A stretch of DNA of 7,475 nucleotides from NCBI GenBank assembly GCA_016218905.1, contig JACRCS010000771.1, positions 1-7,475 of the forward strand. Reading direction: 5' to 3'. The position numbers were made by a program, and so were the translations under genes. Under the pieces are notes generated by a model. It was not told the DNA's origin. It was given only the letters and a program-made list of their open reading frames with translations, and ran no database searches. This DNA comes from Deltaproteobacteria bacterium (GTDB lineage Bacteria > Desulfobacterota_C > Deferrisomatia > Deferrisomatales > JACRMM01). Each line of letters starts with the position of its first letter. Within the stretch, counting starts at the first letter, position 1. Shown piece after piece: positions 1,768 through 4,147 of this stretch.

Positions 1768-1956
1768 TCAGAAATGATGGTCCAGGTCTTTTTGGTTGAA
1801 GTGGCGCGCGTAGACGGTAGCCGGCGTGGACTCTTCCGTCCCGCTGATCGTGGGTGTTCTGCCGACATGGTCCTGTGGGAGTCCGCCGGAAGCGGCGACG
1901 CTCAGGCTGCTGATCAGGAGCGAGAAGGCGAGGGACAGGAGAACGCTGCGCTTCAT
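1768..1956 (-). CDS. Small secreted peptide 1 (62 aa), FN-DL-H-F tail family
   Basis: A 62-residue protein with a clear Sec signal peptide: MKRS, then a hydrophobic core (about residues 5-21), and probable cleavage after V-A-A (residues 20-22). This would leave about 40 residues with no Cys and no membrane segment. The last 16 residues, TVYARHFNQKDLDHHF, match the end of the peptide at 3986-4147 at 9 of 16 positions (T, V, Y, F, N, D, L, H and the terminal F); the middle parts do not align. The ribosome site GAGGTG is 5 bases before ATG. A near-consensus sigma-54 promoter lies about 46 bases upstream, and the divergent neighbour is a sigma-54 activator. No named family is recognised. Possible roles (secreted signal, metal-binding or protein-binding peptide) are guesses; the conserved free C-terminus hints at recognition by a partner. 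Confidence 0.8.
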   Translation of the reverse strand: MKRSVLLSLAFSLLISSLSVAASGGLPQDHVGRTPTISGTEESTPATVYARHFNQKDLDHHF

Positions 1957-2001
1957 GATTTCACCTCGTGGGGTGAGTGGGTTGATGTTGACCCCTGCTA
2001 T

Positions 2002-2018
2002 AGCACGAGGCGTGCCAA
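2002..2018 (-). promoter_or_regulatory. Sigma-54 (-24/-12) promoter of peptide 1
   Basis: On the minus strand the sequence reads TTGGCACGCCTCGTGCT. The GG and GC dinucleotides are separated by exactly 10 bases, as sigma-54 requires, and TGGCACG matches the -24 box fully; the -12 box is GTGCT against TTGC[AT]. Transcription would start near 1991, giving a leader of about 35 bases before the ATG at 1956. Confidence 0.85.
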
Positions 2019-2087
2019 GGTGATGTGGAGATGATTTCTCCTGACGGCTCCAGGGCTTTGCGTGTAGGATGTGGGGCGATATTGCCG

Positions 2088-2113
2088 TATGTGACGATAC
2101 TGGTTTGTCATAT
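2088..2113. promoter_or_regulatory. Imperfect inverted repeat TATGTGAC-N11-GTCATAT (candidate enhancer)
   Basis: TGTGAC (2090-2095) and TTGTCA (2105-2110) are inverted with matching AT-rich outer edges. This repeats the half-site words of the perfect site at 2133-2148. It lies roughly 97-122 bp upstream of the predicted peptide 1 start site, the usual distance for a sigma-54 activator site. It is imperfect, so support is moderate. Confidence 0.4.
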
Positions 2114-2132
2114 TTGCAATCGTGCCCCCGAA

Positions 2133-2148
2133 TTGTCACCTGTGACAA
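2133..2148. promoter_or_regulatory. Perfect inverted repeat TTGTCAC-N2-GTGACAA (candidate activator site)
   Basis: Seven-base arms are exact reverse complements around CT, and the core reads GTCA-N4-TGAC. NorR, a GAF-type sigma-54 activator, is known to use GTCA-N3-TGAC, so the resemblance in shape is notable, though the spacer differs by one. The site is about 142-157 bp upstream of the predicted peptide 1 start site and 29 bp before the regulator start codon. It could therefore serve both activation of peptide 1 and autoregulation of the regulator. Confidence 0.6.
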
Positions 2149-2176
2149 GTCGGGCGGGCCGGAGGGGAAGCGTGCG

Positions 2177-3736
2177 GTGGTAGACCGAAGCGAGTTCTTC
2201 CGCCAGATGACCCTGCGGATCTGCAGCAGCCTGGATATCGAAGCCGCGCTGCGGAAGGCGTTCGAGTACCTCCGAGCGGAGTTCTCGATCGACGAGCTCT
2301 TTCTCGACATCCTCGACGCGAATCTCGGCGCGCTGCGACGGTTGGCACAAGTTTCCGAGGACCCCAAGTTGCGCCCGCGCGAGATCCTGCCGCTGCCCGA
2401 GGGGCTCTGGTCTTGGGTCCGGGAAAAGCGCCGCCCCTTCGTCGTCGACCCGCGGGACGCGAGCAGCCAGATCCGGGCGTTGGCGCCCATCGTCGATCTC
2501 GCCGGCAACTCGGACGCGGTCCTGCCGTTGCGCATCCAGGGCGAGCTGCTCGGGACCCTCGTCCTCCGGGTCCACGGTAAGGGGAAGTTTACGTCCGAGC
2601 ATCTCGAGCTTCTCGCCTCGGTGGCCGAGCCGTTCGCGATCGCGCTCGCGAACGCTCTGGCCCATGAAGATCTGGCCCGCTACAAAGATCTCCTCCTGGA
2701 CGACAATCGCTTCCTCTCGAAGGAGCTGCGGGGAGAGGTTTTGGGCGAGATGATCGGCTCGGAAGGGGGGCTCCGGGACGTCATGACGATGGTGGGACAG
2801 GTCGCTCCCCTCCAGAATACGGTCCTCCTGCTCGGGGAAACCGGCGCCGGGAAGGAGGTCGTGGCGAACGCGATCCATCACGCCTCGCCACGGAAGGACG
2901 GACCCTTCATCAAGGTCAACTGCGGCGCGATCCCGGAGACCCTGCTCGACAGCGAACTCTTCGGGCACGAGAGGGGCGCTTTCACGGGCGCGACTGCCGA
3001 GAAGAGGGGCCGTTTCGAGCGGGCGAGCGGCGGGACCATCTTCCTGGACGAGGTCGGAGAGCTTCCGCTCTCCGCTCAGGTCCGGCTCTTGCGGGTGCTG
3101 CAGAACCGGGAGATCGAACGGGTGGGCGGCGACAAGCCCCTTCCGGTCGACATCCGGGTCATAGCTGCGACCCACCGAAATCTCGAGAGCATGGTCGAGG
3201 CCAAACAGTTCCGGGAGGACCTCTGGTTCCGCCTGAACGTCTTCCCCATTGTCATTCCTCCGCTACGGCACAGGATCGGGGATATCCCCGCCCTCGCCAG
3301 GCACTTCGTCGCACGGAAGAGCCGCGAGTTGGGGATTGGGGCTCCACCGCCGATCGCCCCCGGAGCGCTGGACCGGCTCGTGAGCTACGCGTGGCCCGGG
3401 AATGTTCGCGAGTTGGAGAACCTGATCGAGAGGGAATTGATCACGAGCCGCGAGGGCCCTCTTCTCTTCGACTCGCTTCAGGCGCGTGGTAGCGCCGAGC
3501 AGGCACCGGCACGGAAAGCTACCAAGGCGCTGAACGGGCCCACGCGATTGGATGACGTCATCGCCGCCCACATAAGGTCTGTGCTCAAGGCGACTCAGGG
3601 GAAAGTTCATGGGCCTGGCGGCGCCGCGGATGTCCTTGGGGTGAACGGAAGCACCCTCAGGGCACGGATGCGAAAGCTAGGAATCCAGTTTGGGCGGAAG
3701 GCGAAGCGAGTGGGCGCGCGAGCGAACTGGTCCTAG
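2177..3736 (+). CDS. GAF-domain sigma-54-dependent transcriptional activator
   Basis: A 519-residue enhancer-binding protein built as GAF (about residues 12-165), AAA+ (about 190-420) and a Fis-type helix-turn-helix (about 470-505). Seen: Walker A GETGAGKE (220-227), the sigma-54-contacting GAFTGA loop (267-272), Walker B GGTIFLDE (285-292), then RVIAATHR, FREDLWFRLNVFPI and WPGNVRELENLIERE. There is no receiver domain, so control is probably by a small ligand or redox signal acting on GAF, as in NorR/FhlA-type proteins; the signal is unknown. The GTG start at 2177 has GGAGGGG 9 bases upstream. The frame stays open back to 2069, but that part overlaps the palindromic operator region and lacks domain sequence. 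The gene is divergent from peptide 1, which has a sigma-54 promoter and is its most likely target. Confidence 0.92.
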   Translation: MVDRSEFFRQMTLRICSSLDIEAALRKAFEYLRAEFSIDELFLDILDANLGALRRLAQVSEDPKLRPREILPLPEGLWSWVREKRRPFVVDPRDASSQIRALAPIVDLAGNSDAVLPLRIQGELLGTLVLRVHGKGKFTSEHLELLASVAEPFAIALANALAHEDLARYKDLLLDDNRFLSKELRGEVLGEMIGSEGGLRDVMTMVGQVAPLQNTVLLLGETGAGKEVVANAIHHASPRKDGPFIKVNCGAIPETLLDSELFGHERGAFTGATAEKRGRFERASGGTIFLDEVGELPLSAQVRLLRVLQNREIERVGGDKPLPVDIRVIAATHRNLESMVEAKQFREDLWFRLNVFPIVIPPLRHRIGDIPALARHFVARKSRELGIGAPPPIAPGALDRLVSYAWPGNVRELENLIERELITSREGPLLFDSLQARGSAEQAPARKATKALNGPTRLDDVIAAHIRSVLKATQGKVHGPGGAADVLGVNGSTLRARMRKLGIQFGRKAKRVGARANWS

Positions 3737-3876
3737 CCAGCTTCCTTGTTCCCTATTCACCGTTTCAAAGGCCCTCAGTGGCACCCAGCGGGACGGCTAC
3801 CTCTTCTCGTCGACCGGGGCTTCCGGCCCCGGGCCGATTCCTTTCGAGCAGCAGCAAGGGTCGAACTCGCGGGGGC

Positions 3877-3904
3877 GGGGAGAGGCGCGGTCGCGCCTCT
3901 CCCC
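3877..3904. terminator. Strong 13-bp hairpin between convergent genes
   Basis: GGGGAGAGGCGCG (3877-3889) and CGCGCCTCTCCCC (3892-3904) are perfect reverse complements with only 2 bases between, so the effective loop is 4 or more. It sits between the regulator ending at 3736 and the peptide 2 gene ending at 3986, which converge. That position suits a bidirectional terminator. U-runs are absent on both sides. The rest of 3737-3985 holds no supported gene. Confidence 0.6.
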
Positions 3905-3985
3905 CGGGATACCTGGCAGGCTCTGACTCGCTTCCGGTCGAGCGGAACGTTCGTCCTGTCCGGGGCGGGCAGAGCCTCAACACCC

Positions 3986-4147
3986 CTAGAACTGGTGCTC
4001 CAGGTCGGTCCTGTTGAACTGCGCCTCGTAGACGGTTCGAGCCTCGTCGGCAGCGGGGGCCCGCACCTCCTTCGCGAGGGAAGCGACGCTCGCCCCGAGA
4101 AAGGCGGTCAGCAGGGCGACGACGGTGATGCTCTTCCTGATCTTCAT
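3986..4147 (-). CDS. Small secreted peptide 2 (53 aa), FN-DL-H-F tail family
   Basis: A 53-residue protein with a Sec signal peptide: MKIRK, a hydrophobic core (residues 7-18), and cleavage likely after A22 or A25. This leaves only about 28-31 residues. The C-terminal 16 residues, TVYEAQFNRTDLEHQF, match the peptide at 1768-1956 at 9 of 16 positions and end at the same Phe. The region between signal and tail is shorter and unrelated. The start is the ATG at 4145-4147, preceded by AGGAGA and a 5-base spacer; in-frame upstream ATGs lack a good ribosome site. It lies 157 bp downstream of YceI on the same strand and converges on the GAF regulator. It has no Cys and no recognisable family. Function is unknown; both genes belong to one family by the shared tail. 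Confidence 0.75.
   Translation of the reverse strand: MKIRKSITVVALLTAFLGASVASLAKEVRAPAADEARTVYEAQFNRTDLEHQF

Follow-up and report, generated by a model that had tools for sequence, protein, structure and literature searches.

Putative exported miniproteins with a common C-terminal tail form a very rare deltaproteobacterial family probably linked to sigma-54 activators

Free C-termini in the periplasm are read by HtrA-type proteases, among them DegS and AlgW; the latter is activated by the C-terminus of MucE, a small envelope protein of Pseudomonas aeruginosa (excerpts of PMC8545111 and PMC3819740). The same excerpt of PMC8545111 states that PDZ specificity is determined chiefly by positions 0 and −2, that the residue at −2 is Trp in the AlgW motif and Tyr in that of DegS ligands, and that the MucE decapeptide SVRDELRWVF was used in structures, while that of PMC3819740 makes MucE expression dependent on the stress sigma factor AlgU. 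Here we describe two miniproteins, peptide 1 and peptide 2, encoded in a 7,475-nucleotide (nt) stretch of contig JACRCS010000771.1 from a Deltaproteobacteria bacterium (the whole stretch is referred to below as the window). Both are very probably exported and linked to sigma-54 activators, the confidence being lower for the control of peptide 2. They resemble MucE in being small exported envelope proteins with stress-linked transcription and a C-terminal Phe after [DE]-L-x-ring-x, but they carry His rather than Trp at −2 and accompany sigma-54 activators rather than AlgU; the comparison was made with the published decapeptide alone, and PDZ binding is a proposal for the present peptides.

Three further systems were compared. 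Outer-membrane protein C-termini, known as DegS ligands and as the BAM beta-signal, likewise present a free C-terminal Phe in the periplasm, but the predicted mature parts of peptides 1 and 2 are too short for a barrel (31-41 residues), have no Tyr at −2 and end in a hydrophilic tail. PtrA-type co-regulatory peptides (NCBIfam NF041599) are also short exported proteins and match residues 1-25 of peptide 1 weakly, but the score was 13 bits against a cut-off of 31 and covered the signal peptide, and peptide 2 gave no match. Modules of the XylR/DmpR/MobR kind have the same plan of an activator, a divergent −24/−12 site and a palindrome between them; unlike those modules, the first gene here encodes an exported miniprotein. 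Scanning of both peptides showed no match in Pfam or PHROGs and none above the cut-off in NCBIfam. PDB searches returned nothing better than E 0.62, and in the alignments and ranges displayed no match extended as far as the tail's last residue. No description of such peptides was found in an open-access library, and the excerpts of PMC4641369, PMC3162934 and PMC12316311 mention none.

Shine-Dalgarno-like sequences precede both start codons (CGAGGTGAAATC-ATG and CACAGGAGAAAGAA-ATG). The last 16 residues of the two peptides, TVYARHFNQKDLDHHF and TVYEAQFNRTDLEHQF, are identical at nine of 16 positions, and the match runs exactly to both stop codons. The existence of two short open reading frames (ORFs) with export signals and such tails, as claimed in a preliminary description of this DNA, was thus confirmed by the ORFs and by chance tests. 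The best C-terminal match among the 56 ORFs of at least 40 aa in the window was that of this pair, with nine identities, and the best match in 200 Markov-shuffled windows was eight, reached in 16 of them and exceeded in none. When the tails were compared with 8070 C-termini (open frames of at least 60 codons from 80 other loci), at most five positions were identical to the tail of peptide 1 and at most six to that of peptide 2. Among about 2.96 million random pairs of these C-termini, from which related proteins had not been removed, 141 reached at least nine. Codon usage clearly favoured peptide 2 (+30.8 bits over 54 codons). For peptide 1 it was weak, at +9.5 bits in total, although the frame was still the best of six.

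The result of searching a collection of 5.8 billion proteins showed a single further member, P0003, annotated as a 54-aa hypothetical protein (locus tag HY900_02250, on a 42-kb contig) in a deltaproteobacterial metagenome-assembled genome (MAG). Its identity to peptide 2 is 70% from end to end, including the signal peptide, and it shares 12 of the 16 tail residues, two of the four changes being conservative (V/L and D/E). Searching the same collection with the mature parts returned only the same three proteins at E up to 10, from four candidates; these searches require common five-residue words, which limits their sensitivity. All three members have a hydrophobic N-terminal stretch followed by an S-V-A|[AS] cleavage site (signal peptides were assessed by rule, without a trained predictor), and cleavage after S-V-A would leave 31-41 residues in the periplasm, consisting of a variable spacer and the conserved tail. 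The three sequences share the ending [DE]-L-[DE]-H-[HQ]-F, in which the terminal Phe is free. Residues that do not vary are Phe at 0, His at −2 and Leu at −4; the residue at −5 is acidic, and conservation extends to Tyr at −13 in all three and to −15 in the window pair. The idea that conservation is confined to the C-terminus therefore stands for the window pair and fails for peptide 2 and P0003, which are alike throughout.

Both ORFs look like real but very rare genes, and with the third member the proposed family appears to be genuine. Two findings nevertheless weigh against a confident family assignment of peptide 1. Its mature part scored −2.5 bits, without codon-usage support, and a profile of peptide 2 and P0003 recovered it weakly in a test set of 28,135 open frames: the whole profile gave E 0.62, behind several signal-peptide matches from other loci, and with a tail-only profile the cut-out peptide 1 was the best non-self match at E 0.46 but fell to E 3.9 within its longer open frame. 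Because of this, the homology of peptide 1 rests on the tail, the location in the same window and the promoter-like site described below. The weak leave-one-out values also mean that relatives as distant as peptide 1 could escape the profiles.

Further members were sought widely. The pattern [VL]Y[EA][AR][QH]FN[RTQ][TK] matched 11 stretches in 84,980 genomes, none of them a relative; the 23 pattern matches in viral contigs included no relative either, and among plasmids peptide 2 had two matches at E = 6 and peptide 1 none. Profile searches showed no member in sets of 14, 395 (one phylum), 277 (one class), 13 and 21 (one order) genomes, nor, at E 5e-4, in 277 genomes largely re-drawn from the first phylum and 275 of another. 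The sets overlap, the limits vary (E up to 10, 0.1, 0.01, 0.005 or 5e-4), the strictest limit would hide a tail-only relative, and the sets contained no positive-control genome with a known member, so that these negatives are limited. Profile matches in the sets of 14, 395 and 277 genomes fell mostly on the signal peptide and in every case stopped short of the last residue. A tail-only search of 395 genomes gave matches at E up to 0.5 in 41 genomes without a member; the loci of 30 of the 45 matches were read back, and in no case did a short ORF with an export signal end in the matched stretch. No relative emerged from a BLOSUM scan of 111 loci, the best score being 21 compared with 60-68 for members. 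The expectation that the tail would recur beside sigma-54 activators was not borne out, since the tail motif was absent from the 80 scanned loci with related activators and the profile searches of whole genomes yielded no member. Shortness beyond the reach of most gene finders is likewise an insufficient explanation for the rarity, since P0003 was annotated at 54 aa and six-frame searches were empty within their sensitivity. The peptides appear to be a genuine family of miniproteins, though a tiny and very rare one, whose promoter context is defined.

Sigma-54 sites were scored against TGGCAC-N5-TTGCW with GG and GC required as invariant. The result showed that the window contains only two sites matching at 10 of 11 positions; both are minus-strand sites, each with an activator gene in divergent orientation (Table 1). 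The plain number of sites with up to two mismatches was unremarkable, with four found and 1.86 expected, and at least four occurred in 23 of 200 shuffles. It is the comparison of related loci, rather than the plain site count, that gives peptide 1 a strong predicted sigma-54 link. Among 72 loci carrying relatives of the GAF-type activator, 50 had a site of at least 9/11 on the divergent strand and one on the other strand, with about 1.8 expected from shuffles (counting spanned 450 bp; eight of the 80 loci, including the duplicate pair L042/L043, were omitted because their matches lay less than 533 nt from the locus start). The distance between site and activator match in the 50 loci had a median of 160 nt (quartiles 150 and 219) and fell within 140-175 nt in 27; in the window it is 159 nt. 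Peptide 1 thus has a predicted −24/−12 promoter, namely a 10/11 site immediately before the gene whose placement relative to the activator is conserved, and a palindrome (2133-2148) lies between activator and site, where an enhancer would be expected. The regulatory result that is new here is this sigma-54-like site before peptide 1, predicted from sequence comparison, whose position is conserved in loci of related activators.

The GAF-type activator has its best relatives in Geobacteraceae and other deltaproteobacterial genomes, with identity up to 66%, and the relatives (L001-L080) form a recurrent module, seen in 50 of 72 loci, in which a divergent sigma-54-like site faces varied genes. Reading of the translations showed that the first gene behind the site is azoreductase-like in 15 of the 50 relatives and porin-, efflux-, hydrolase- or oxidoreductase-like or unclear in the rest. 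As judged from this survey, peptide 1 occupies the position that other genes hold in the relatives. Azoreductase-like counterparts occur in 20 of the 80 loci and are 27-40% identical to the protein of the window; given this level of identity, the downstream position and the gap of 654 nt, cotranscription of peptide 1 with the azoreductase-like gene is no more than possible. A 69-aa exported peptide without the present tail lies behind the site in one of the 50 loci, L065, from a Syntrophorhabdaceae MAG. This peptide (7543-7752, minus strand) has a strong ribosome-binding site and an end unlike these tails, and a 1610-aa frame with an export-like start lies about 580 nt beyond it.

For peptide 2, no site of at least 8/11 was found directly upstream. 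The genes for hemerythrin, YceI and peptide 2 follow each other in line on the minus strand, separated by 148 and 157 nt, and a hairpin occurs 81 nt past peptide 2; on these grounds, peptide 2 may be the last gene of a hemerythrin-YceI unit with its own sigma-54-like site and XylR/V4R activator. The assertion that both peptides stand beside sigma-54 activators is better supported than claimed for peptide 1 and needs correction for peptide 2, whose nearest activator gene (2177-3736) is convergent and whose likelier controller is that at 5732-7360. Among 18 genomes searched, the nearest relatives of the V4R activator were 56% identical, were present in two copies in one genome and faced a 9/11 sigma-54-like site; on the longer of the two stretches, the translations showed pirin-like, small membrane and CsbD-like genes after it. 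A 49% identical relative in another genome faced a 10/11 site and an oxidoreductase-like gene dependent on flavin adenine dinucleotide. No tail peptide was noticed in the translations beside these relatives. Two near-identical copies of a V4R activator (L112 and L124), each facing a sigma-54-like site, lie in the genome (G004, MAG101) to which L005 also belongs, and a transposase-like gene, by its translation, begins near one of them.

What the tail does can be discussed by analogy with MucE. Two sigma-54 stress regulons would make related Sec-exported miniproteins on demand; removal of the signal peptide after S-V-A would leave a periplasmic spacer and a tail with a free C-terminal Phe; and the ending [DE]-L-[DE]-H-[HQ]-F-COOH would dock in a PDZ domain belonging to a periplasmic protease of the HtrA type, so that regulators differing in their sensor domains would both signal to a single envelope receptor. 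Recognition of the tail by a receptor, protease or partner, as the preliminary description suggested, is plausible. Docking on a PDZ/HtrA-type protease as MucE docks on AlgW is a more doubtful proposition, though the likeliest single mechanism, and it is improbable that two independent regulators with GAF and XylR/V4R sensors each release a private exported miniprotein with the same C-terminal key for one periplasmic receptor, coupling cytoplasmic sensing of different chemical stresses to a common envelope response as an inside-out counterpart of MucE-AlgW. The MucE decapeptide and the TELEHQF end of P0003 have the E-L-x-ring-x-F ending in common, and [DE]-L-x-[HWYF]-x-F occurred in two of 2134 other C-termini, a set that includes shadow ORFs. 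HtrA-type proteases were found in all eight related genomes, but they are near universal, being present in 11 of 14 control genomes.

Several results weigh against docking of the MucE type. The residue at −2 is His in all three members instead of the Tyr or Trp of DegS and AlgW ligands. The similarity to the MucE decapeptide is modest: among other C-termini, 1.2% do as well as peptide 2, 2.7% as well as P0003 and 6.9% as well as peptide 1, and 12% of 117 Phe-ending C-termini match MucE as well as peptide 2 does. Conservation to −13 or −15 exceeds the length that binding in a PDZ groove should require. No HtrA protein in the eight related genomes scored above the DegS cut-off, and every HtrA match lay in a frame of at least 458 aa, which suggests DegP-type proteins. 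For the residue at −2, the three peptides are not filed as MucE-type HtrA agonists, and for all these reasons together MucE is kept as a working analogy and not as a family.

At least as likely as MucE-type docking is a helical partner-binding module, taken broadly. The tail would then fold as a small helical module and bind either a metal or a partner of its own in the periplasm or membrane, and the peptides would be envelope-stress accessory proteins made together with the adjoining detoxification-type genes, a possibility that we hold tentatively. The window pair is alike over 16 residues, F-N-x-x-[DE]-L resembles the start of a helix, an AlphaFold2 model is predicted as one long helix, and the neighbours encode an azoreductase-like protein, hemerythrin and YceI. 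Against this, the model, built on three sequences, is poor and uninformative (predicted local distance difference test score 66.7, predicted template modelling score 0.27), and family and PDB searches point to no partner.

Partial duplication or gene conversion, by which the tails would be young copies with little or none of the shared sequence under selection, is unlikely. The tail DNA of the two peptides is identical at 36 of 51 bases including the stop codon, with the same codon (counted by eye) at eight of the nine shared residues; three members are known, and the mature part of peptide 1 has no codon-usage support. On the other side, shared favoured codons are expected at the 66% G+C of the window, P0003 in another genome retains 12 of the 16 tail residues of peptide 2 with two of the four changes conservative, and the promoter-like site of peptide 1 sits at a conserved position. 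Least convincing is the proposal of secreted-signal precursors with a C-terminal piece freed outside the cell and sensed by neighbours, for although a signal peptide, a variable middle and a conserved C-terminus, here in two copies, match the arrangement found in precursors of exported pheromones, for instance Phr peptides, and the promoter-like site would imply regulated expression of peptide 1, processed signals of the Phr kind are shorter than the conserved part here, the peptide of a Gram-negative bacterium is first periplasmic, and within the 7.5-kb window neither copy was seen to have a gene for a transporter, protease or receptor next to it.

The use of one tail by two regulons is the interesting part of the finding, and the interest of the family hinges on the receptor. 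Should the tail prove to be a docking signal, control of the envelope by sigma-54 regulators would work via a dedicated messenger peptide and not only via enzymes, regulons acting on the same receptor would be recognisable by a common tail, and such messengers could be private to a lineage and escape family databases. Otherwise, what is left is still a delimited family of very rare miniproteins whose promoter context is defined.

Table 1 Features of the window
Feature	Position	Strand	Evidence or remark
Peptide 1, 62 aa, putative exported miniprotein with tail TVYARHFNQKDLDHHF	1768..1956	-	ORF, tail comparison, codon usage
Shared tail of peptide 1, 16 codons	1771..1818	-	Tail comparison
Peptide 2, 53 aa, putative exported miniprotein with tail TVYEAQFNRTDLEHQF	3986..4147	-	ORF, P0003 relative, codon usage
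Shared tail of peptide 2, 16 codons	3989..4036	-	Tail comparison
Sigma-54 promoter-like site TGGCACGCCTCGTGCT, 10/11	2002..2017	-	45 nt before the ATG of peptide 1
Palindrome TTGTCACCTGTGACAA, candidate enhancer, binding inferred	2133..2148	.	115 nt from the sigma-54 site
GAF - AAA+ - HTH sigma-54 activator, start codon assumed at 2177	2177..3736	+	Divergent from peptide 1
Flavodoxin_2 / azoreductase-like protein	460..1113	-	654 nt downstream of peptide 1
Sigma-54 promoter-like site TGGCACGGCAGGTGCA, 10/11	5601..5616	-	68 nt before the hemerythrin gene
Hemerythrin HHE-domain protein	5074..5532	-	Domain match
YceI-like exported protein	4305..4925	-	Directly upstream of peptide 2, same strand
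XylR_N - V4R - AAA+ - HTH sigma-54 activator	5732..7360	+	Divergent from hemerythrin-YceI-peptide 2
12-bp hairpin, possible transcript end, no T run	3877..3904	-	81 nt downstream of peptide 2; folded region z -2.47

From left to right, the minus strand carries the genes for the azoreductase-like protein, peptide 1, peptide 2, the YceI-like protein and hemerythrin, and the two activators are on the plus strand (Table 1). The YceI-like protein is at most 70% identical to any non-self protein among the best 120 matches listed, and comparison of the whole window with plasmids gave one match, of 72%, to a sigma-54 regulator gene. The ORF at 1291-1653 (minus strand) was considered as a third exported protein for the signal-peptide look of its start and was rejected, its codon usage being −29 bits in frame. 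Two further palindromes were noticed. The first, GAGTGTGACAGGATCTGTCACACTC at 82-106, has perfect 11-nt arms with the half-sites TGTGACA/TGTCAC, as in the palindrome at 2133-2148, lies upstream of an apparent minus-strand gene running off the left edge and may mark a second target of the GAF activator. The second, AGTGCTGCCTAGCACT at 5675-5690, was found by eye between the V4R activator and the sigma-54-like site facing it and is a candidate enhancer.

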